A DNA stretch of 64,000 nucleotides from Acidobacteriota bacterium (GTDB taxonomy: Bacteria > Acidobacteriota > Aminicenantia > JBFLYD01). How positions within the stretch are numbered: the stretch's first letter is position 1; the number at the start of each line of letters is the position of its first letter. Below are positions 128-60,311 of this stretch, piece by piece. The notes beneath the pieces are model-generated. The model was not told where the DNA came from, searched no databases, and worked only from the letters and a program-made list of their open reading frames with translations. The stretch spans positions 1-64,000 of the forward strand of contig JBFLYD010000037.1 of assembly GCA_040756905.1 (NCBI GenBank), in the 5' to 3' direction. A program made the position numbers and the translations under genes.

Positions 128-913
128 GCCATAGTTAATTTTTTTAGCCGCCTCTAAAATGAATAACTCTTCATCTTTTAAACCAATAAAATGAGAAACT
201 ACCTTATCTATTGAAACTGCATCTTCGCCCCCAAAAAGCAGCCCTATTTTTCGCGCATTTCCATTTGCCGGACCGTCTCCATCCATTCCTACTATTCCGT
301 CAACAATAGTAAAAACAGGTTTTGTAGCTCTATAGACATCTAACAAAACCGACGCGAAAAAATTATTATTTGTACCAGCTCTAAGATGCCATTCAGTTTT
401 TCTCTTTCCTGGTACAACTCCAAACATATTTTTTACTCCAAGAGTCAGGACCATTTGAGTGTGAGTTTTCAGCTTTGCCAGATTAATTATCTTATCGACT
501 TCAATAGCTTCTTTAGCAATTTCCAGCTTCTTGAATTCCCCTTCCTTGTTATCTACTTCAACTGCCCTGATAAATTCTTTTATAGGAATGCCGAACTTAT
601 CTGCAACTTTTTTTATCCCAGCTTTCTGGGCTACCACCATCAAATTTCCAATAGAAGGGCTGTCTCCAATAAATGGTATCCCTCCTTCCTTCACAATCTT
701 CTCCAGAATTATATCCACTATTATCGGGTGTGTGGTAACTGCTTCTTCCGGTGGATGGGCAGAGAGTAAATTTGGTTTTATTAATACTTTATCCCCTCTT
801 TTTATTATTTGAGACAAATCTTCAAATTCAGAAAATATTTTATCAATGGACTTTCTCACTTCATCATACTTATAGTTTTCACATTTTTCTATAACTACTT
901 TGCTTTTTTCCAT
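113..913 (-). CDS. DUF362 domain protein, C-terminally truncated by the adjacent IS end
   Basis: This 266-residue product resembles the N-terminal part of DUF362 proteins, a family of uncharacterised, often Fe-S-associated proteins. Recognisable blocks are the KPNLLS segment near residue 47, the TTHP segment near 60, the KLKTHTQM segment near 148 and the GVKNMFG stretch that follows it. Full-length members usually continue with more DUF362 sequence and often a ferredoxin-like end with cysteine clusters. This one stops just after the AAKK-INYG segment. The last residues (CIFR) and the stop codon are encoded inside the IS-like end at 113-127, so the gene is probably disrupted. It is the last gene of a minus-strand series after rmlD. 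Whether the shortened product is functional cannot be told. Confidence 0.75.
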   Translation of the reverse strand: MEKSKVVIEKCENYKYDEVRKSIDKIFSEFEDLSQIIKRGDKVLIKPNLLSAHPPEEAVTTHPIIVDIILEKIVKEGGIPFIGDSPSIGNLMVVAQKAGIKKVADKFGIPIKEFIRAVEVDNKEGEFKKLEIAKEAIEVDKIINLAKLKTHTQMVLTLGVKNMFGVVPGKRKTEWHLRAGTNNNFFASVLLDVYRATKPVFTIVDGIVGMDGDGPANGNARKIGLLFGGEDAVSIDKVVSHFIGLKDEELFILEAAKKINYGCIFR

Positions 914-971
914 AGTTTTTAGCTTTTATTTTTTGTATTGTTTGCCTTCAGACAACAGTCTAAATCTTTTG

Positions 972-1829
972 TTAAATGTATCTTTTTTCTTTCAAGTAAG
1001 ATTCGAGTGCTTCTCTCCAGTGAGAAAAGCCTTCAATGTCTGTATTTTTTAGATTCTTATTTTCAAGAACAGAATATTTTGGCCTTTTAGCCTTTGCACC
1101 ATACTCTTCTGATGTTACTGGAGCTAAATAAACTTTCATTTTTATTAGATTAAAAATCTCTTCTGCGAATTCATACCAGGAACAGTATCCCTCGTTTGTC
1201 ATATGAAAGACCCCATATAAATCGGTATTAATCAATTTAAGGATTTTTATTGCAAGTTCCCTTGCATTTGTCGGCGTTAAAACCTGGTCTCTTACAACCC
1301 TTATTTTTCTTCCTTCTTTTGCAAATTTCACCATAAATTCAACAAAATTTCCTCCTTTTTCAATTGAACCAGAGACACCATACAATCCCGATGTTCTAAT
1401 TAGAAAATACTTTCTACCGATATTTTTTAAAAATATTTCACCGACTAATTTCGAAGTTCCGTAGACATTGAGAGGGTTGGGATTATCCTCCTCTATATAT
1501 GGGGATCTTTTTTCTCCATCAAAAACATAATCTGTGCTGAAATGAACAAGGGTGAAATCCAATTCATTTGAAATCATTGCCAGGTTGCGAACACTGATGG
1601 AATTAACAAAGAATGATTTTTCCGGAAAATCCTCACATTCATCAACTCTGTGAAAGGCTGCTGTATTTATTACTGCATCAGGCCTTAAGGATTTAAAATA
1701 CTCTCTTACTTCTTCAAATTTAGTTACATCAAATTTTGGATAGTATAGTGGAATTATCTCATAGGATTTATTTTCTCTAATTATTTCAGACCCTAACTGT
1801 CCATCTGCTCCAATAAGAGCAACTTTCAT
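972..1829 (-). CDS. rmlD: dTDP-4-dehydrorhamnose reductase (RmlD/RfbD family)
   Basis: This 285-residue short-chain reductase is of the RmlD type, which makes dTDP-L-rhamnose from the 4-keto sugar with NAD(P)H in the cytoplasm. The sequence begins with the nucleotide-binding GADGQLG motif (residues 7-13). It also has the STDYVFDG segment (98-105) and the catalytic Y-x-x-x-K (Tyr123, Lys127), all as in the family, and the length is typical. The other rml genes are not in the window, so the assignment rests on this gene alone. A methionine adenosyltransferase regulatory (MAT2B)-like role is a less likely reading of the same fold. A 105-base gap carrying a partial repeat separates it from the upstream GDSL gene. 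Confidence 0.85.
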   Translation of the reverse strand: MKVALIGADGQLGSEIIRENKSYEIIPLYYPKFDVTKFEEVREYFKSLRPDAVINTAAFHRVDECEDFPEKSFFVNSISVRNLAMISNELDFTLVHFSTDYVFDGEKRSPYIEEDNPNPLNVYGTSKLVGEIFLKNIGRKYFLIRTSGLYGVSGSIEKGGNFVEFMVKFAKEGRKIRVVRDQVLTPTNARELAIKILKLINTDLYGVFHMTNEGYCSWYEFAEEIFNLIKMKVYLAPVTSEEYGAKAKRPKYSVLENKNLKNTDIEGFSHWREALESYLKEKRYI

Positions 1830-1849
1830 CTTTTATAAACAAATTTTCC

Positions 1850-1868
1850 AGTGTGTTGTCTCCACACT
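1850..1868. repeat. Small inverted repeat AGTGTG-N7-CACACT
   Basis: AGTGTG at 1850-1855 pairs with CACACT at 1863-1868 across a 7-base loop, in the gap between rmlD and the GDSL gene. The hexamer matches the ends of the 146-bp repeat at 11211-11356, so this is probably a decayed copy of that repeat's terminus. No thymine run follows on either strand that would make a convincing terminator. Confidence 0.5.
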
Positions 1869-1899
1869 TATCTTCTTAAAGTATATATTCTCTATCACC

Positions 1900-1934
1900 G
1901 CACACTGAAGGGATAGGGAGAAGGAACTTCCCCA
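1900..1934 (+). repeat. Diverged partial copy of the 11.2-11.5 kb intergenic repeat
   Basis: The 35 bases from GCACACTGAAGGG to CTTCCCCA align with the left part of the two repeats at 11211 and 11395, differing at a handful of positions and a one-base gap. The inner palindrome is only partly kept (GGGAGAAG, then CTTCCCC). The element touches the stop codon of the GDSL gene at 1935, so on the minus strand it would form a hairpin directly after that gene. Confidence 0.6.
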
Positions 1935-3221
1935 CTAATCTCTATCCTTTAGTTTATCTTTTATGTCTCCTCCAAGCATTAATTTTTTGAAATCTTCTCC
2001 AAGAAATATACTGTATGTTTGAGTTTTTGCTTTTCTTCCTTTTACGATGAAATTATACAGATTTACAAGAGGAATATTATATTCATAATGTTCATTTATA
2101 ATTTTTATCAACTCATTTGCAAGAATGCCATAGCCAAGGGAGGATGGGTGTACTGCATCCAGGCTAAAAAGACCACCTGTAAGGAAGTCTGTTGTCAGTT
2201 TAACTCCTCCAACATAAAAGCCTTCAGATCCAATTTTTTTGAGAAAAGCATTTATGTCGAACACAGGAAAGTCGTTCTGCTTTGAGATGGAAGAAATAAT
2301 CTCATTAATTTTATTCGCTCTATCTCGAATGGCTGATATTTCATCTTTATCTAAAACAACCCCATCTGGAAGGGGTATTCCAGTACCACCTAACTCCTTG
2401 GGGATACCGATTTTATTTGCTATGTACGCAGCACCATAGAGAGTAACATAATCTCCAGGGGAGAGAGGGCCTTTAGGTCCTATTAAATAAATGTATTTTC
2501 CATCTGGTGTTAAAACTGGCTTTCCAGTAGTCGGGTTTACAACATAAATTGGCACTGTTGTTACAAAGGGGATTGAAGTCACATCAGGAACATTTGCAGT
2601 TATCAATTTTGCGGTAGTGTAACTTTTTAACGCATTGACAATTGCTTGAAAGTATTGCTGAAAAGTAGATACAGGTGTTAATGTTATTCCCTCGATCACT
2701 CTTCCCGACATAACTGCTTTAAGGACATCATTATTTCCTATCCATAAGGTTATAAGGTTCGGTTTTAAAAAAATTGCCTGTTGCAGTTGGGTTCCAAGTC
2801 CTCTCAGAATTAAATCATGGGCGCCACCAAAATCAGTTACCCTGTATAAAAGGTCATAAGCACTCGCTCCAGGAACGCCAATGTTGTTGTAAGGTCTTGG
2901 AAGTGTAAGGTTTATGGGTTTTCCCAATCCTGGTTTGGGAAGTATTACAATTTGTGGAAATATTGAAATGAGTTGGAGGGTGGGTGGGATTCCCGGCTGT
3001 GATACTAAAGGTTGTTGAAAATCCGGTATTCCAATCTGCTTGGCTAATAAAGCAGGAAAACTTTCGATTTGAAAATCCACAACAAGACCGCCATCTTGAA
3101 AGCCAGCTGTGAGACTGTCTCCTAAAGCCACATAATTTCTCAGTTCGGTTTTATAATCTCTTGGAAATAAGGGGAGAAATAAAATAAAAAAGAGTATTAA
3201 TTTAGAGATGATTCTTTTCAT
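1935..3221 (-). CDS. Secreted SGNH/GDSL-family lipase or esterase
   Basis: This 428-residue protein has an N-terminal hydrophobic signal segment (about residues 5-20). Its mature part carries the SGNH hydrolase blocks: GDSLTAG with nucleophile Ser36, a VPGAS glycine block near 116-120, GNND near 162-165, and a C-terminal D-x-V-H-P block supplying the Asp/His pair. Family members hydrolyse esters of lipids or sugars; the substrate cannot be told here. A proline- and glycine-rich stretch (about 67-110) and another between blocks III and V make it longer than minimal GDSL enzymes. It follows the FadL-type porin gene by 17 bases with a GGAGGA ribosome site, so the two are probably co-transcribed and may act on the same hydrophobic substrates. 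Confidence 0.85.
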   Translation of the reverse strand: MKRIISKLILFFILFLPLFPRDYKTELRNYVALGDSLTAGFQDGGLVVDFQIESFPALLAKQIGIPDFQQPLVSQPGIPPTLQLISIFPQIVILPKPGLGKPINLTLPRPYNNIGVPGASAYDLLYRVTDFGGAHDLILRGLGTQLQQAIFLKPNLITLWIGNNDVLKAVMSGRVIEGITLTPVSTFQQYFQAIVNALKSYTTAKLITANVPDVTSIPFVTTVPIYVVNPTTGKPVLTPDGKYIYLIGPKGPLSPGDYVTLYGAAYIANKIGIPKELGGTGIPLPDGVVLDKDEISAIRDRANKINEIISSISKQNDFPVFDINAFLKKIGSEGFYVGGVKLTTDFLTGGLFSLDAVHPSSLGYGILANELIKIINEHYEYNIPLVNLYNFIVKGRKAKTQTYSIFLGEDFKKLMLGGDIKDKLKDRD

Positions 3222-3238
3222 TTTTCCTCCTCGGATGA

Positions 3239-4534
3239 TTAAAATTTATACCCTATGCTTATGCCAAATAAATTTGCATAGGACTTATAATCACCTTCAT
3301 ATCCATCACTATTTCTTCCTTCTGTTGACCTTTTCTCAAATAAAAGGTATATGTATGAAAAATCAGCCCAAACATTTTTGCCAATGTTATAGCTGAAGCC
3401 TAATGCAAAGCCATGCCTGTCTGAATCAGGCAACTGAGTGGATACCGACTCTGGTAAAGATGGGGAGGGATCAAAAACATATCCACATCTTAATGAGGTT
3501 TTTTCTCCTATTTTTCTTTCAGCTCCCAATCTTAAGTGAAAAACATCTACATAGTATTTTTTACTATCTGAGTTTAATTCGGGATATTTAGGAAATTCAA
3601 TAAAAAGTCTGTCATATGTGCTCCATTCAGTCCAGTTTAAGTCTAATTCGAAAACCCAGTTCTCGATAAAATTTGATGCAAAACCCAGAGATACAATTGT
3701 GGGAAAAGTAATAGATGTTTTAACAGAAGTTTTTCCAAATGGCAATTTCGCGGCAATTAAGCTATCAAGGATTGGATTTCCAGTAGATTTCTGTATAAAT
3801 TCAGCATCTCCTTCAAAATCCACTTTTACTTTGTGTCTGTAAGAAAATCCTATGTTTATCCTATCAGATGGCCTGTACAGCGCTCCAAACGAAAATCCCA
3901 CTCCATAATTTGTAAGACCGGAACTCAATTTTACATGGGCAATGTCTATCACGGAAAAGGTAAATGGGTTGAAAAAAGGGATGTTTTTTTCAAAAGTTAT
4001 ACCTGAAGTTCTCACATCAAGGCCAATTCCCAGGGCAAATTTATCAGAGAATTTGTATGAGACAACTGGTGATAGTGCCAGATGTTTCAGATCAACATAT
4101 TGGGAAATGTATCTACCTGTAAAATTATCAGGGTTGTCCCACTTTGTAGCAAGGCCAAAGGGAGAAAATAGTCCGAGGCCTATTCTTAATTTTTCTCCGA
4201 TGGGCATTACAAAATGAAAGCCTGGTGGGTAAAAGAGCTGTGAAGCCATTTTTTCTGTAACTCCATACCCAGGGAAAGGGTTTGCTCCGTAGAAGGTTGT
4301 TTTAGGAATTATAAAGGTAGCACCAAGATAAAGTTGATAACCATCGAGAAATGCAATTCCAGCTGGATTGTAAAAAATTGCTGAAGCATCGTTTGCCTGA
4401 GCTGTAAATGCTCCAGCAAACCCATTTGCTCTTGTTCCATGTTCAAAAAGCATAAAACCTGAGCCGAAAGAAAAGAGCTTGAACAGAAAAAACCCTGTTA
4501 AAAGAAAAAAAAGAACCTTTTTTAATCTTTTCAT
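3239..4534 (-). CDS. OmpP1/FadL/TodX-family outer-membrane transport protein
   Basis: The 431-residue protein starts with a Lys/Arg-rich hydrophobic signal peptide. It has the family's mature N-terminus (GFMLFEHGTRANGFAGAF-like, with NDASAIFYNPAG at about 48-59) and alternating amphipathic beta-strand sequence ending in an aromatic residue (YKF). FadL/TodX proteins are 14-stranded barrels that let long-chain fatty acids or aromatic hydrocarbons cross the outer membrane. The family call is firm, the cargo is not. The benzoyl-CoA reductase genes elsewhere in the window make aromatic uptake conceivable, but the two loci are about 45 kb apart. A promoter-like sequence lies just upstream and a TAGGAGGAG ribosome site precedes the ATG. 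Confidence 0.88.
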   Translation of the reverse strand: MKRLKKVLFFLLTGFFLFKLFSFGSGFMLFEHGTRANGFAGAFTAQANDASAIFYNPAGIAFLDGYQLYLGATFIIPKTTFYGANPFPGYGVTEKMASQLFYPPGFHFVMPIGEKLRIGLGLFSPFGLATKWDNPDNFTGRYISQYVDLKHLALSPVVSYKFSDKFALGIGLDVRTSGITFEKNIPFFNPFTFSVIDIAHVKLSSGLTNYGVGFSFGALYRPSDRINIGFSYRHKVKVDFEGDAEFIQKSTGNPILDSLIAAKLPFGKTSVKTSITFPTIVSLGFASNFIENWVFELDLNWTEWSTYDRLFIEFPKYPELNSDSKKYYVDVFHLRLGAERKIGEKTSLRCGYVFDPSPSLPESVSTQLPDSDRHGFALGFSYNIGKNVWADFSYIYLLFEKRSTEGRNSDGYEGDYKSYANLFGISIGYKF

Positions 4535-4557
4535 CTTCTCCTCCTAAAATTTCAATA

Positions 4558-4587
4558 ATTATTATTAAACTTTAATTGAAATGTCAA
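4558..4587 (-). promoter_or_regulatory. Sigma70-type promoter for the porin-GDSL genes
   Basis: On the minus strand TTGACA (4582-4587) is followed after 18 bases by AATAAT (4558-4563), which matches the -10 consensus at five of six positions. It sits between the end of era and the porin start and overlaps the era stop codon. No experiment supports it. Confidence 0.5.
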
Positions 4588-5471
4588 ATTTTTTGAGATT
4601 CTAAGAGACTTAAAACCTGAACCGAGTCTCTCCAGTTTTTTTTCACTTCAACCTCTAATTTCAGAAATATTTTTTTATTGTATATTGATTCAAGTTCAAG
4701 TCTGGAAGCTGTTCCTATTTTTTTTAAAAAAATTCCACCTTTTCCGATCAATATAGACTTCTGAGATTCTTTCTCCACGAATATCCCAGCTTCTATAAAG
4801 ATAATTTTTTCTTCCTTATGAAGATTTTTTACATAAACTGCTACTACATAGGGTATCTCATCCTCAACATTTTCCAGTATCTTTTCTCTTATTATTTCAG
4901 ATATGAAAAATTTCTCATTCTGGTCTTGCACTACAATTTTTTCCTTCCCCTTTAATTTATCCAGAGTATACTTCTTTATCATATCAATCAATACATCAAC
5001 ATTTTCTCTCTTGAGAGCAGAGATTGGAATTATCTCTTGAAAATCAGCTTTATCCTTATAAAAATCTATTATTCTTAAAATTTCCGATTTTCTTATTAAA
5101 TCAATTTTGTTAAGCAGAAGGAATTTTGGTACTGATATGGAATTTAATAATTGAATAGAAAATTCATATCCCTTCCCATATTTTTCACTTACATCAACCA
5201 TTAAACAGATAATATCACTTGTTTTAATCGATGAGTATACAAGCTCCATCATTTTCTCGTTCATTTTATGAAGTGGTTTATGGATTCCAGGATTATCCAG
5301 GAAAATTAATTTTCCCCATTGATATTCCTTGATAGCTGTTATTTGATCCCTTGTAGTTTGAGGCTTGTCAGAGACTATTGCCATCTTTTTTCCTATGATA
5401 TTATTTAAAAGAGTTGATTTTCCAACATTTGGCCTTCCTATTATAGTTATAATAGCGCTTATTCTGTTCAT
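4584..5471 (-). CDS. era: GTPase Era
   Basis: Era is an essential GTPase that binds the 3' end of 16S rRNA during assembly of the small ribosomal subunit. The 295-residue sequence has G1 GRPNVGKS (12-19), G3 DNPG (59-62), G4 NKID in the 120s and an SAL segment for G5. A C-terminal KH domain follows with the GKGG loop (GxxG) near residue 245. Length is standard. It is the last gene of the phoH-pgpH-ybeY-corC-era cluster, and its ATG overlaps the preceding stop codon by four bases (ATGA), which suggests translational coupling. Confidence 0.97.
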
Positions 5472-6681: not shown

Positions 6682-7098
6682 TCAGCTCAAGGAATCAACA
6701 AGGTCGTTCTGAATTTTAATCATCCTCTTGGATTTATTTCGATGATCCATTCCAATAAGGTGCAAAATACCATGAACTATAAGAATTTTTAATTCTTTTT
6801 CTAATCCGTGTTTCTTCTTTAGTGTTGAGTAAAAGGCATAAGGAACTGAAATATAAATTTCACCCAAGTATGTGTTTCCATCGGGTAAAATTTCGTTCAA
6901 TTTAAAACTTATAACATCTGTAGTTCTATTCCTTTTTAAATAATCTTTGTTCAATTTTTTTATCTCAATATTATTCGTAAATATTATATTTATTATTTTA
7001 TTTTTTAAATTCAGTTTTTTTTCTAATAATTCACCAAATTTCCTTATTTCTCCTGAGTCAAGCCAGTATTTTTTTTGGAAATTATTAACATTTAACAT
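6682..7098 (-). CDS. ybeY: Endoribonuclease YbeY
   Basis: YbeY is a zinc-dependent RNase used in 16S rRNA 3' maturation and ribosome quality control. The 138-residue sequence carries the signature H-x-x-x-H-x-x-x-x-x-H with His109, His113 and His119 as the metal ligands. The preceding block (NRTTDVISF, then YLGEIYIS) is also typical. It is about 15 residues shorter than the average member, mostly at the C-terminus. It sits between pgpH and the CBS-domain gene, a neighbourhood that recurs in many bacteria and supports the call. Confidence 0.95.
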   Translation of the reverse strand: MLNVNNFQKKYWLDSGEIRKFGELLEKKLNLKNKIINIIFTNNIEIKKLNKDYLKRNRTTDVISFKLNEILPDGNTYLGEIYISVPYAFYSTLKKKHGLEKELKILIVHGILHLIGMDHRNKSKRMIKIQNDLVDSLS

Positions 7099-7122
7099 TA
7101 TATATTCTTATTTTTTCATAAG

Positions 7123-9417
7123 TTATTTTTTATTTTTTGTTTCTTTTAGATGAAACTTGAAATCTGGATATTGAATTCTTTGATGATACAGATTTACAAG
7201 GGAATTATAGAAAGAACTTGCTATTTGATTAAGTTCCTTTAATGTAATTTCACATTCCTCAAGCTGCCCGTCTTCTATAATTTTATTAAAAATTTCATTA
7301 ATTATATTTTCAATTATTTCTGGAGTTGGATTTTTAAGGCTCTTTGATGCAGCCTCTACTGAATCAGCTAACATCAAAATGACACTTTCCTTTGTTGCTG
7401 GTTTTGGTCCGGGATATCGAAAATTATTCTCCAGGACTTTTAAATCATCTGTATTTTGAGATTCTTTAGCTTTATGGAAAAAATATCTGACCAGAGAGGT
7501 TCCATGATGTTGTTTAATCATTTCTCTTAATTTTGGCATTATTCTCAGTTTTTTTAGTATTTCATCCCCTTTTTCCACATGACCGACTATAACTGAGACA
7601 CTTTTTTCAGGAGATATTTTTTCATGAATGTTAAACACATTTAGTTGATTTTCAATAAATAATTCAGGCATTTCTATTTTTCCTACATCATGGTATAAAG
7701 CTACTGTTTTTAATAAAAGGGGATTAAGATTTATTGACTTTGCTGCTTGCTCAGATAAAGAAGCAACCATCAGAGAATGGTGATATGTTCCAGGAGCTTG
7801 AATAGCCAATCTCCTGAAAATTGGAAGATCAGAGTCGCTTAATTCAAGAAGCTTAATCTCTGAAATTATTCCAAACGCTCCTTCCATTAATGGCAACAAA
7901 AAAGAAGCAAAGATTGAGACAAAAGTTACATTGAATAAACATATAGTTATTTCAGATAGTAATTTTTGGTTAAAATAGAAACTTCCTTCTATAATGTGGA
8001 GAATAATTATCAATAATATATTAATCGGAAGAATTAAAATAAAACATGTTTTTATAACCGAAGATCTTCTTCTTCTACCATAGTGTTCAATTCCCAATAA
8101 AGCTGCAAAAGATGAAAGAAATGAAAAGATAACAATCCAGAAATCTGCCTTGAGTAAAATACCTGCGAATATACTTAGAAACAAAGAGAAAATAAAACCC
8201 ATGAAAAAATTTGAAAGGAAGGCTGTAACTATAGTTCCTAAAGAATAGGGAAAAGCATATTTAAATGCATCAGAGTATCTCAGAAAAAATATCTCATATC
8301 TCCCTTCAAGAACTAAAGATATGGAGAGGAAAAACTTTAATAAGACTAAATTTACAAAAAACTGAGTCATAAAGAACAAAATAGCATTTATTTTCGTAAG
8401 GCTTGGGAATTCAGCTAAACTCAAAGCTCTAATCATAATTCCAGTGAATAAAAATATTAATAAAAAATTTCCGCTGAAATTATAAAACCAGTTAGAAGTA
8501 TTCTCTATTTTTTCATTTATTGAATTTATAAAATTTATAGATTCCTCTTTTACTTCGTCCCCTTTTCTTATCAATATCTTACCTTTTTTTATACTTAATA
8601 AAACTGAGCTCACCTCACTCATAGCCTTTTCCTTTTTATACAGAGTGGCTAAAGAATTATAACTTAAATTTGGATACAAAAAAGAGTTAACCATTTCACT
8701 AATACTACTTTTTTCTTCAGAGCTCAGTCCCATGGAAAGAATTTTTCGATTGATGGTATTTTTTGCTTCTAAAATATCATAAGTATCATCTAATTTTAAA
8801 GTTTTCTCCTTTCCATCTGATTCAATTATAATAAATTCATTATTTTTTATATCATTGGATATTTTATTCAATAAGATTCCTTTTGAATATAGTTCTTCCA
8901 ACATATTTAATAAAAGTGATTCTATATTTTCATTGAAATTATTTTTGATAAGAAAGGTTATCGATTCTTTTGGAATATCAAAATTATAAATAGAAATACA
9001 TTTTTGTTTTATCTCTTCCAGCATTTGATTTTTATTTAACTTTTCTTTCTTATTTAACTCTTCTCTGCACCTTAGAAAAAGTTCATTTACATTTTTCTTT
9101 AGATTTGCAAAGACATTTTTATCAAGATTATACACAGGAGGAACTGAATTATATGCCTCCCTTTTTTTATTTTCTGTGGAAATTCTGTCTTCGATAGTAA
9201 TATCAACAGGGCATACTACATCAAATTCTGCTATCTCTCCTTTCTTCAGTACAGGAAGAGCCGTCGTTCTTTTTGGAATTATTGTAAAAGTTAAGAAGAA
9301 GGAAATTAAAGAAATAAATAATATAATTTTCAAATAAAAAAGAAACTTAGATTTAGTTTTTTTTTCTTTGAGTTTATTTGGATAATTAAGAATTTCCTCT
9401 TTTTTGATTTTTATCAT
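7123..9417 (-). CDS. 7TM-HD phosphohydrolase, PgpH-like c-di-AMP phosphodiesterase
   Basis: This 764-residue membrane protein has one N-terminal transmembrane helix (about 27-48), a long extracytoplasmic 7TMR-HDED domain, then about seven hydrophobic helices (roughly 310-510). A cytoplasmic HD domain follows, with an HHSLMVASL segment, an HDVGK metal motif, and further His-containing blocks (GHVEKGDEI, KQHHGTS). PgpH homologues hydrolyse cyclic di-AMP. The second messenger is not proven here, but the architecture is the same and the length fits. Its ATG overlaps the phoH stop (ATGA), and ybeY follows after 24 bases. Confidence 0.9.
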   Translation of the reverse strand: MIKIKKEEILNYPNKLKEKKTKSKFLFYLKIILFISLISFFLTFTIIPKRTTALPVLKKGEIAEFDVVCPVDITIEDRISTENKKREAYNSVPPVYNLDKNVFANLKKNVNELFLRCREELNKKEKLNKNQMLEEIKQKCISIYNFDIPKESITFLIKNNFNENIESLLLNMLEELYSKGILLNKISNDIKNNEFIIIESDGKEKTLKLDDTYDILEAKNTINRKILSMGLSSEEKSSISEMVNSFLYPNLSYNSLATLYKKEKAMSEVSSVLLSIKKGKILIRKGDEVKEESINFINSINEKIENTSNWFYNFSGNFLLIFLFTGIMIRALSLAEFPSLTKINAILFFMTQFFVNLVLLKFFLSISLVLEGRYEIFFLRYSDAFKYAFPYSLGTIVTAFLSNFFMGFIFSLFLSIFAGILLKADFWIVIFSFLSSFAALLGIEHYGRRRRSSVIKTCFILILPINILLIIILHIIEGSFYFNQKLLSEITICLFNVTFVSIFASFLLPLMEGAFGIISEIKLLELSDSDLPIFRRLAIQAPGTYHHSLMVASLSEQAAKSINLNPLLLKTVALYHDVGKIEMPELFIENQLNVFNIHEKISPEKSVSVIVGHVEKGDEILKKLRIMPKLREMIKQHHGTSLVRYFFHKAKESQNTDDLKVLENNFRYPGPKPATKESVILMLADSVEAASKSLKNPTPEIIENIINEIFNKIIEDGQLEECEITLKELNQIASSFYNSLVNLYHQRIQYPDFKFHLKETKNKK

Positions 9418-57079: not shown

Positions 57080-57140
57080 TAATTTTTTCAATTTTTTATA
57101 GAGCTTTAAAAGTCTTCTATGTTACATCTCAACCATTCAT

Positions 57141-57170
57141 TTGACATCTAAAAATATAACTGCTTAAATA
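57141..57170 (+). promoter_or_regulatory. Divergent promoter for the GAF-fragment ORF
   Basis: TTGACA (57141-57146), 18 bases, TAAATA (57165-57170); a 17-base spacing gives TTAAAT. A GAGG ribosome site precedes the ATG at 57190. It is back-to-back with the tetR promoter, about 60 bases apart. Confidence 0.5.
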
Positions 57171-57189
57171 GAAATTATCAGAGGCAAGG

Positions 57190-57585
57190 ATGAACCATCC
57201 ATCAAAATCTTTCATGGAAAAACTCCTCTCCTTACAGGAATCTGAAAATTTCTTAGACATTCTACTTTCTGATTACCTCAAAAGATTTATACTATTGGGA
57301 GAAGTCTCATTGGGTTCATTCTTTATCTTCAAAAAAGAAAAAAATGATTTCTCCCTCATATCCATGAATAAAATAGGAGAGTATGTGGAAAAAGAAGAAC
57401 TAATTAAAAGAGTGGAGGAAGGAAAAAAAGGAATAATCCCTCATGTTCTTCAAGCAATGAAACCATACATAACAAATGACTGTGAAAAAGACCCATTTCA
57501 TATACCATTTAGAAAAGAGAAAATACTTTCAGAGATGATAATCCCATTTGAAATAGATTCAGAAAGAATAGGAATTGTAGTATAG
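57190..57585 (+). CDS. Truncated GAF-domain-like protein
   Basis: The 131-residue product has a helical N-terminus (residues 5-32). A half-GAF-like segment follows, with SLGSFFIFKKE and a late block (RKEKILSEMIIPFEIDSERIGIVV) that resembles the strands before the GAF chromophore/ligand loop ending in IG-V. It stops just where a GAF domain normally continues, and no output domain follows in any frame I could see. It has a promoter and ribosome site, so a short protein may be made, but it looks like the front of a larger sensor. The assignment is weak. Confidence 0.5.
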   Translation: MNHPSKSFMEKLLSLQESENFLDILLSDYLKRFILLGEVSLGSFFIFKKEKNDFSLISMNKIGEYVEKEELIKRVEEGKKGIIPHVLQAMKPYITNDCEKDPFHIPFRKEKILSEMIIPFEIDSERIGIVV

Positions 57586-57613
57586 TCTCTCAAATCCCGA
57601 TGTTCTTTCGGGC

Positions 57614-58153
57614 TTGGAACGTGAACATTTTATAGTTCAAAAAAATGAAGCTGTGTGTAAGAGCGTTGAAGATAATATACTTTCAGCAGTTGAGGTTATA
57701 AATATTCTTAAAAATTGTGAGATAGAGAAGTTGTTAAAACCTCCAAAAGAAATAGAAAGACTTGTACCCAATTTATTGGGATGTGTGGCAACAACAAAAC
57801 TTTCTTTAATAGTTGGACCAAGGGGAGAAATATATAAATGCACAAAAACTATTGGGGATGAAAAAGAAATTTGCGGAACGATTTTTAATATAAATTATGA
57901 CCGTTCCAAGTTTAAAAAGTGGGTTGATGCAGATAGATTAAATATAGAACAATGCAGAAAATGCTCGATGGTGCCAATATGCAGTGGTAATAGTTGTCCT
58001 TATGATTTTCTTATAAATAATAAAAAAAATAAATGTTCTCAAAAAGAAAGATATGAACACTATTTAGAAATGTTGAGAATATTATATCAACAAAAAAGAT
58101 TTGATATAAAGGGTCATGACTCTAAAAAAAATAAAGAGAAAGGGGGTGAATAA
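57614..58153 (+). CDS. Free-standing SPASM domain, C-terminal part of a radical-SAM maturase
   Basis: The 179-residue reading has the full SPASM signature: Cys57-x13-Gly71-x4-Cys76, then Cys114-x2-Cys117-x5-Cys123-x4-Cys128 and Cys141. In radical-SAM peptide maturases this part holds two auxiliary [4Fe-4S] clusters and follows a TIM barrel with CxxxCxxC. Here the barrel is absent. The frame is open only from 57581, has no ATG start (TTG at 57614), and follows the GAF fragment in a different frame, so this is probably a truncated gene. Its stop codon is one base before the start of the 49-residue peptide. Confidence 0.65.
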   Translation: MEREHFIVQKNEAVCKSVEDNILSAVEVINILKNCEIEKLLKPPKEIERLVPNLLGCVATTKLSLIVGPRGEIYKCTKTIGDEKEICGTIFNINYDRSKFKKWVDADRLNIEQCRKCSMVPICSGNSCPYDFLINNKKNKCSQKERYEHYLEMLRILYQQKRFDIKGHDSKKNKEKGGE

Positions 58154-58154
58154 A

Positions 58155-58304
58155 ATGGACGAAATTAAATGGATTTACGATCCACTAAATGTAGAAGTGC
58201 TGGTCCCACCTGATTGCTGTACTTGTACTACTGAGGGCCCTGATATCGGTATACCTAACTGCGAATATCTAACAGACCATCTTGTAGTTGTGTATCCAAG
58301 TTAG
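58155..58304 (+). CDS. Candidate RiPP precursor peptide (49 residues, Cys-rich)
   Basis: From the ATG at 58155 the peptide has 49 residues, starting MDEIKWIYDP, with four cysteines at 21, 22, 24 and 36 (PPDCCTCTTEG and PNCEY) and a hydrophobic end HLVVVYPS. An excellent ribosome site (GGGGGTGA, six bases before the ATG) overlaps the end of the SPASM gene. A longer frame from 58116 is unlikely. The size, the SPASM neighbour and the cysteine-rich core suggest a ribosomally made, post-translationally modified peptide. No match to a named RiPP family is claimed. Confidence 0.55.
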   Translation: MDEIKWIYDPLNVEVLVPPDCCTCTTEGPDIGIPNCEYLTDHLVVVYPS

Positions 58305-58325
58305 TGAAAGATTAAAGGGGTAAAA

Positions 58326-58341
58326 AAGAGGGATCCCTCTT
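58326..58341. repeat. Perfect palindrome AAGAGGGATCCCTCTT after the peptide gene
   Basis: A 16-base perfect palindrome 21 bases after the peptide stop codon. On the plus strand it can form a stem of six pairs with a four-base loop but no U-run follows. It could limit readthrough into the propeller gene or stabilise the peptide mRNA. On the minus strand a T6 run follows, but no minus-strand gene arrives there. Confidence 0.5.
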
Positions 58342-58405
58342 AAAAGAAAAAGTTTATTTAGGGGTGTAAAAAAATTGTAATTTTGATATATTAATTAATA
58401 GTAAT

Positions 58406-59419
58406 ATGAAAAAAAATTTTTTATTAAATTTCTCTATCCTTATTCTTCTTGTTCTGGCGCTTGTAGCAGACAAAAATGAGACCGTAAGAATCAAAATTGT
58501 TGCGAGTATTGGTGTTGAGGAAATAAAAGCCAAAGGGGAAGATTCTTATCTTTTTTACACCATTAATTCGATTGACTGCGATAATGAAGGAAATATATAT
58601 GTGCTGGATAAAAAAGCTTCTTGCATTAAGATATTTAGCAAAAACGGAAAATTCTTAAGAAAGATCTTAAGAGAAGGTCAGGGACCCGAGGAGATTAGAA
58701 ACCCCTATAGATTAGCTATAAATAGATTCACTGGAAACATATTTGTTTTACAAGAACACGGCTTTCAAATGAAGGAATTTGATGTCTTTGGAAGATTTGT
58801 TAAGTCTTATGCACTTCCAGAACAATTTTTCCATTATTTTGAGTTTCTTGAGAAAGATAGAATTATTTACATAGCAAAAAAATGTTATGAAGAGAAAACA
58901 TGTAGTAAATTTAAGATATTAAATCTAAATACATTAAAAATTGAAAAAAAATTCGCTCCTATACAACAACCTTCAATTGTTTATGCTTATCAGAGGTTTA
59001 TAATCAAAGAGGGAATTCTCTGGACATGCCCAGATGACAAAATGGAATTAGTTGCCTACGATATGATAACAGGTAAAGAGGAAAAATCTATACTTATTAA
59101 AGAAAGCTATAGGGAATATAAAATAGTTAGGGGTCCGAATTGGTGGGCTGCCAGGCTTTTTAATTTTGCTCAGCCGCTATTAATTAATAGGAATATCTAT
59201 ATATTGCTTACAAAGCAGGATTTCCTTAGCATAGGTTCTCCCCCTGAACTGAAAAGTAAAAAGCTTACTCTGTACCGTCTGGAAAAAGACCGCTTGAAGA
59301 GAGCAAGAGGCCTTCCTGAAGGTGATTTTATGGACTTAGGAACAGTATGGCTAAATCACATAATTCTTTACTCATGGGACCCATATCCTCATATTAAGGT
59401 TTTGGAAATTAATGATTAA
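58406..59419 (+). CDS. Secreted six-bladed beta-propeller (NHL-like) protein
   Basis: The 337-residue protein has an N-terminal signal segment (about 2-22, ending LVLALVA, no lipobox cysteine) and repeated NHL/6-bladed-propeller motifs, for example INSIDCDNEGNIYVLDKKASCIKIFSKNGKFLRKI (50-84) with the typical D-x-x-G-N-I-Y-V-x-D pattern. Such proteins are abundant in some Bacteroidota and Aminicenantes-like genomes and are mostly of unknown function. It overlaps the next gene by eight bases, so the two are coupled. Confidence 0.75.
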   Translation: MKKNFLLNFSILILLVLALVADKNETVRIKIVASIGVEEIKAKGEDSYLFYTINSIDCDNEGNIYVLDKKASCIKIFSKNGKFLRKILREGQGPEEIRNPYRLAINRFTGNIFVLQEHGFQMKEFDVFGRFVKSYALPEQFFHYFEFLEKDRIIYIAKKCYEEKTCSKFKILNLNTLKIEKKFAPIQQPSIVYAYQRFIIKEGILWTCPDDKMELVAYDMITGKEEKSILIKESYREYKIVRGPNWWAARLFNFAQPLLINRNIYILLTKQDFLSIGSPPELKSKKLTLYRLEKDRLKRARGLPEGDFMDLGTVWLNHIILYSWDPYPHIKVLEIND

Positions 59420-60311
59420 ATGTCGTATTTTACTAAATAAACTGTTACCCATGGAATCCATTGTAAGATACCCAGAAAAATCACGAATTGAAGATATTCC
59501 CATCAATTATTGGATTAATTGTGTTCAATTAACAAACTACCTACACAAGCTAATTTTTCCGGTGAAGAATTCTCTTCAAATCAATCCAGAATATATTAAT
59601 ATTCTGAAAGATTTTGAGTTATTCAAACAATATGTATTACATTGTCATTCAATTATGTGTAAAGGATTGAATGGAACATCACTCTATTGGGGTATAGGGG
59701 GATCAAACATTAAAAATGGGTATTTAAGTAAGCTTCGAATGACAAATATTTTAGCTGAAGCACAAATTCCTGTAGAAGCATTTACATGTGTACAAAAAAT
59801 AGCAAAGTCATTCAGAGATCCAATAGAAAATGCCTTTACAACAAATCAATATTACGTAGCTTTTATGAGATTAGAAAATATATCCGAACCAGATCTTGAA
59901 AGAGAGGGAATTAAAGTTATTCGTATATATAATCATAAAATTAGTGTTCCCAAATCATCTGTCCCCATAGCTTTTATAAAAAATGGAATCATACCCGTAG
60001 CTTCCTTTATGATAGGAATTCCCTTCGAAGATATAAATGATGTAAAAGAAACTTTCTCTGTTATGAAAAAAATTAATACTTATTTTGTGCAGATACATAT
60101 ATGTAGTCCATTAATTGGGACTGATTTATGTAAGAAACCTGCTTTTTATGAAGTTACAATTGACTATAATAAACTCGAGAGTTGTTCAATAGATAATGAA
60201 CCAATTATGGAAACAAAGTATTTCACAAGAAATGAAATTTTTGACTTATATCTTGAGGGGTTAGGGATTGCTCAAGAAAAATTGGGAGAAATGTGGAAAT
60301 ATAATCGATAA
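59412..60311 (+). CDS. Partial radical-SAM-like protein without a CxxxCxxC motif
   Basis: The 299-residue protein's C-terminal half resembles the second half of a B12-type radical-SAM barrel: NGIIPVASFMIGIPFEDINDVKETFSVMKKI (about 189-219, a G-x-P-x-E/D-x-x-x-D-x-x-ET block), then VQIHICSPLIGTDL. The N-terminal half has cysteines but none in the CxxxCxxC spacing that binds the SAM cluster, and I cannot assign a fold to it. It could be a decayed maturase or a partner protein of the SPASM fragment. Its start overlaps the propeller gene. Confidence 0.5.
   Translation: MIKCRILLNKLLPMESIVRYPEKSRIEDIPINYWINCVQLTNYLHKLIFPVKNSLQINPEYINILKDFELFKQYVLHCHSIMCKGLNGTSLYWGIGGSNIKNGYLSKLRMTNILAEAQIPVEAFTCVQKIAKSFRDPIENAFTTNQYYVAFMRLENISEPDLEREGIKVIRIYNHKISVPKSSVPIAFIKNGIIPVASFMIGIPFEDINDVKETFSVMKKINTYFVQIHICSPLIGTDLCKKPAFYEVTIDYNKLESCSIDNEPIMETKYFTRNEIFDLYLEGLGIAQEKLGEMWKYNR

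Follow-up and report, generated by a model that had tools for sequence, protein, structure and literature searches.

When a domain with a full set of SPASM cysteines is followed by a cysteine-rich peptide and a secreted propeller, and no radical-SAM barrel precedes it, the question arises whether a RiPP pathway has been broken at this place or is still served from elsewhere. The first-pass annotation, which proposed such a peptide-modification locus here, left both answers standing: a locus in decay, or a SPASM part working with a barrel encoded at another site. The window, that is, the whole 64-kb stretch of DNA that was analysed, is contig C37 of a genome of 2.56 Mb in 69 contigs, evidently a draft or a metagenome assembly, so that the break point described below rests on that assembly's contig. 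The coordinates, strands, cysteines and ribosome site reported earlier were all verified on the sequence, and the following features make up the locus.

57135..57585, plus strand: 5' region of a truncated transcription regulator, with its GAF-domain head at 57190-57585 (DNA identity to four copies in its own genome)
57582..57617, no strand: putative deletion junction containing a short hairpin, CCCGA-TGTTCTT-TCGGG (present once in the genome)
57614..58153, plus strand: predicted SPASM-bearing C-terminal half of a radical-SAM peptide maturase that has lost its barrel (TIGR04085, 42 bits; match to the G014 maturase)
58140..58149, plus strand: candidate ribosome-binding site of the peptide, AAGGGGGTGA, five bases before the ATG (from sequence)
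58155..58304, plus strand: predicted 49-aa precursor peptide (G014 homologue at the equivalent place, leader box, coding pattern)
58406..59419, plus strand: predicted secreted six-bladed beta-propeller (PF17170), conserved partner gene after the peptide (PF17170 E 1e-15; G014 match)
59412..60311, plus strand: B12/radical-SAM-like ORF lacking CxxxCxxC (weak C-terminal match to TIGR04013)

The first of these, the regulator head, was overlooked previously and belongs to the history of the locus. The description of the region as an AT-rich island stands insofar as GC is lower (30-33% against about 35%), but the contrast is mild. In the surroundings, the downstream molybdopterin gene lacks a close match among 40 relatives. 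The sole match of an RNA-family search was a poxvirus element, discounted as chance given its sub-threshold score.

The maturase tail, its peptide and the propeller

The SPASM frame is open from 57581, has its first start codon, a TTG, at 57614 and its stop at 58151-58153, and presents cysteines in the order C-x13-G-x4-C ... CxxCx5Cx4C ... C, with all seven cysteines of the family retained. The match to the TIGR04085 SPASM domain passes the cut-off of 27 bits, and the complete cysteine pattern that had been noted is confirmed. The scores against the curated maturase equivalogs TIGR04463, TIGR04334 and NF052473 fall below cut-off (the best, 62 of 500 bits). It is likewise true that neither radical-SAM-like ORF carries CxxxCxxC; the barrel with this motif is absent from the window and present both in an intact relative and in sister loci.

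The intact relative is Candidatus Aminicenantes A3_metabat2_scaf2bin.042 (JALVQI010000151.1; hereafter G014), to which two independent searches led. Among 148 relatives, the 49-mer found a single match above the rest (E 0.002), and the same place was the best outside match of the SPASM piece (E 5e-33). In G014, the end of a 449-aa maturase is overlapped by a 56-aa cysteine-rich peptide, behind which come a propeller and an ABC exporter. The order of maturase, cysteine peptide and propeller is shared with the window, and the SPASM ORF is 38-40% identical to residues 281-447 of the maturase. Since SPASM, peptide and propeller all share about 35-40% identity with an intact locus of this order, the SPASM ORF is, on the evidence of sequence, the torn C-terminal half of a cognate maturase and not a stand-alone partner. 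Unlike the window, G014 has the whole maturase (with CNFECIYC), a peptide without the CC pair, and the ABC exporter in place of the B12/radical-SAM-like ORF.

The peptide itself starts at the ATG at 58155, carries cysteines at positions 21, 22, 24 and 36, in its core, and has a leader box, KWIYDP (58167-58184), as well as a conserved tail, TDHLVVVYP; with the G014 peptide it has in common KWI(Y/F)(D/N)P and TD(H/Y)LVVV. It is the only short ORF in the entire window with a leader box and at least three cysteines. Identity to G014 by codon position 1/2/3 shows a coding pattern (51/69/44%) alongside the values of 57/66/41% for SPASM and 57/69/38% for the propeller, as expected for conserved frames. 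The peptide is, judged by these patterns, a genuine precursor and not a chance ORF, a short gene adjacent to the maturase piece with a conserved leader and a variable cysteine core, so that the earlier suggestion of a possible RiPP precursor is borne out. On the three points that had been set beforehand as able to refute it, homologous loci have the peptide at this place, its frame is conserved, and the SPASM piece appears torn from the cognate maturase. Among the genomes searched, G014 is the only other one with this exact peptide family.

The secreted six-bladed propeller was also correctly recognized, with its PF17170 match and signal-like N-terminus, and over 343 aa it shares 40% identity with its counterpart at the equivalent position in G014. 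The fourth gene of the supposed system fared less well. The ORF at 59412-60311 does resemble the C-terminal part of B12/radical-SAM proteins, albeit weakly (TIGR04013 at residues 188-242, with 30 bits where the cut-off is 251), but its counterpart is missing from G014 and unseen in the other sibling loci examined; no close relative was found in 60 genomes of the class, and the ORF probably lies outside the system.

The regulator head and the break

The ORF at 57190-57585 (GAF_2, E 0.006) is the head of a regulator that recurs in its own genome. At the DNA level, it is 81-85% identical to four copies (C37:75972, C51:16382, C69:770 and C61:2037), with the similarity beginning at 57135-57141 and stopping at 57581 in all four, and its protein is 75-80% identical to the N-terminal GAF part of the regulators at C37:75972 and on C51 and C69; more partial copies exist. 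One of these copies runs on into a sigma-54 activator, and the others into C-termini that appear AraC-like. The first recognizable homology past 57581 is the maturase tail. Because the similarity to the four copies ends at this very position, it appears that a deletion joined the regulator's GAF head, which ends at 57581, with the tail of the maturase (from about 57614), and would have taken out the effector and DNA-binding domains of the former, the barrel of the latter and the promoter. Very probably, then, what remains at this locus is the 3' part of an Aminicenantia (Acidobacteriota) radical-SAM/SPASM RiPP cluster that was beheaded by deletion. Of the two answers offered by the first-pass annotation, decay is the one upheld, and the barrel supplied elsewhere is not, given that relatives keep barrel and SPASM in one chain and that the DNA break lies within two once-separate genes. 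The three surviving ORFs are free of stops and a good ribosome site is kept, which implies that the deletion is recent or that some function is left. The remnant is evidence that such clusters turn over through deletion at repeated regulator genes.

The junction has no further copy within 3 mismatches in the 2.56 Mb, so that its hairpin was ruled out as a repeat or the end of an insertion sequence; a likeness to sigma-54 activator sequence at position 5290 of locus L054 (on C54) is too short to count. Elsewhere in the genome, at the ends of contigs C37, C28, C22 and C69, one short sequence (GGGGTGCACTCC with its flanks) interrupts several copies of the GAF regulator, which looks like the work of mobile-element insertions.

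Contig C54 holds a regulator that lacks the GAF domain, a -24/-12-like element (TGGCACGGTATTTGA) and a frameshifted maturase barrel half, which is the genome's own best barrel match, is 56-60% identical to G014 and ends near residue 244-247. Both this half and the SPASM half of the window branch with the G014 maturase. Judged by the identity of the barrel half, the SPASM half lies 17 percentage points (about 3.4 SD) further from G014 than expected, so that the two halves may derive from two paralogues. Another maturase barrel half (7091-7905 of locus L054, on C54) comes right after the first and ends in repeat-like sequence at the contig end.

Sister maturases and the fate of the pathway

The intact operon, as seen in G014, consists of a maturase with a leader-recognition region, a TIM barrel with CxxxCxxC and SPASM, the cysteine-rich precursor, the secreted propeller and the ABC exporter; upstream are the end of a sigma-54 activator and a -24/-12-like, putatively sigma-54 promoter element. 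Within the same G014 contig (407-851 and 5355-5797 of locus L029, on C151), a stretch of 445 bp with an activator tail and a sigma-54-like promoter element is duplicated at 97% identity. The two copies precede different maturase genes, and one of these genes is a fragment. In the proposed scheme, a GAF-containing activator would turn on the operon, the N-terminal region of the maturase would bind the leader box [W/Y/F][I/L]x[D/E/N]P, the barrel would generate the 5'-deoxyadenosyl radical, and the SPASM clusters would help to link sulphurs of core cysteines to neighbouring residues as thioethers. Among solved structures, the family profile best matches PDB 5wgg (E 5e-31), an entry that reads "Radical SAM domain protein" in the structure table and which we take to be CteB, the SCIFF ranthipeptide maturase; it shares the layout of barrel and SPASM, although the alignment omits the N-terminal part and the precursors described here are non-SCIFF-like by profile. 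CteB forms a thioether in the SCIFF peptide (PMC8326336). By analogy with CteB, the core cysteines are probably joined to neighbouring residues. The product would then be exported by the transporter, and the propeller, outside the cytoplasm, could bind it or protect the producer.

At the window locus, this pathway would be dead unless a sister maturase acts in trans. The genome has two intact sister loci, one on C61 (58-aa cysteine peptide, maturase, two M16-like peptidases, propeller and ABC gene) and one on C7 (maturase, 70-aa cysteine-rich peptide, TPR protein and ABC gene). Conceivably, the cassette of precursor and propeller still works, with the peptide modified by the C7 or C61 maturase and the SPASM stub reduced to operon leader DNA; peptide, ribosome site and propeller are all intact, the sister precursors bear related boxes (QFIIEP and IFLLEP), and loci with one maturase and several precursors are known in genomes G475 and G070. 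We nevertheless consider this unlikely, as the conserved tail TDHLVVV is absent from the sister precursors, which contain far more cysteine, the maturase pieces of G014 and the window form a branch of their own, separate from C7 and C61, and the sigma-54-like promoter element is lost.

An intact maturase in the chromosome, with the contig misjoined at 57582-57617, seems quite unlikely. A metagenome-assembled genome with repeated copies of a regulator invites such suspicion, all the more so when the missing regulator body and a barrel half both lie on C54, complementary to the gap in the window. The junction, however, lies in single-copy sequence with no shared repeat, neither contig contains some 80-90 bp on each side, the barrel on C54 has a frameshift of its own, and the identities of the two halves to G014 fit one gene poorly. 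That the SPASM ORF is a functional separate subunit, supplying a barrel from another site with clusters or peptide binding, is highly improbable: the frame is open with all SPASM cysteines and a barrel gene without SPASM exists on C54, but in those sister maturases with a leader-box peptide that were aligned, a single chain carries barrel and SPASM, the only start is the TTG, with no clear ribosome site, and that barrel is broken by its frameshift.

The leader box and its propeller partners in other genomes

Near the start of the cysteine peptides, the leader box takes the form M..[W/Y/F][I/L]x[D/E/N]P, which the KWIYDP of the window fits. Boxed cysteine peptides adjoin intact maturases in genomes G145, G076, G070, G064, G475 and G213, in Vagococcus fluvialis and in the sister loci on C7 and C61, and occur in other phyla too, often preceded by a perfect AGGAGG site. 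The rule was drawn up after the sequences had been seen. The control loci yielded one independent match to it in 243 kb. Twelve further loci contributed little to its support because their lower-scoring maturases lack the box. Together with the syntenic G014 locus, the box common to precursors beside intact maturases bears out the assignment of the window locus to the RiPPs. Maturases of the wider group occur in 9 of 142 genomes of the class, the lower-scoring ones without such peptides. When 84,980 species genomes were scanned with the window SPASM alone, zero relatives were confirmed, exact patterns being too specific; with the G014/C54 barrel, the scan returned only G014 and four distant maturases, and a viral scan gave one distant match.

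Among known systems, TIGR04463, TIGR04334 (Clo7bot), NF052473 (FlmE-OhkG) and NF038107 (CefB) show full-length homology to the intact relatives and likewise place a cysteine-rich peptide beside the maturase. The G014 maturase nonetheless stays below the cut-offs of all four (243/525, 223/600, 214/500 and 211/600 bits, respectively), and the precursors described here match no NCBIfam model. A member of the Gly-Gly radical-SAM RiPP system TIGR04149/TIGR04150, also with a propeller, sits some 4 kb away from the G014 counterpart of the window locus; its peptide matches TIGR04149 at 35 bits, whereas the 49-mer shows neither a Gly-Gly leader nor such a match. The precursors tested found no match among the Pfam and NCBIfam peptide models, and for this reason, they are overlooked by annotation pipelines; the shared leader box offers a simple means to find them. 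Among the papers that could be searched for FlmE, OhkG, Clo7bot and Aminicenantes RiPPs, none dealt with this group. The precursor group is an unmodelled variant of the radical-SAM/SPASM RiPPs with a recurrent propeller partner.

That partnership can be put in numbers. PF17170 propellers number 9-26 per genome, and one lies within 5 kb of 6 of the 8 top maturase loci (the window excluded), where 0.4 would be expected (P ~2e-7; with a propeller density five times higher, to allow for clustering, P 0.001). Maturase loci are, therefore, strongly enriched for secreted propellers within Aminicenantia. From the pairing and the secretion, we would guess that the propeller is a receptor, carrier or immunity protein, and its recurrence in an uncultured lineage yields a concrete, testable proposal for this role. 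In its boldest form, which strikes us as rather unlikely, leader-box peptides and secreted propellers constitute an undescribed Aminicenantia RiPP family in which every peptide is paired with a separate extracytoplasmic propeller that serves as its receptor or immunity protein, and in which decapitated loci such as the present one remain active with the help of a maturase from a sister locus.

Several loci extend the theme of peptides and propellers. In the genome of the window, locus L074 on C51 (7976-11778) contains a GAF regulator with an AraC-like tail beside a 79-aa secreted cysteine-rich peptide, a 198-aa protein and a propeller, and no radical-SAM gene, possibly an unmodified counterpart. 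In G070 (223-4633 of locus L092, on C12), a maturase is followed by peptides and two tandem peptide-propeller units, a layout that suggests one propeller per peptide, and in G475 (2530-4211 of locus L095, on C93), at least five, perhaps six, leader-box cysteine peptides stand in tandem after one maturase. The cultured Firmicute Vagococcus fluvialis bH819 (3085-4740 of locus L081) has an intact maturase with two cysteine peptides (MRWLSRP... and MNYINQP...), which makes this locus convenient for bench work.
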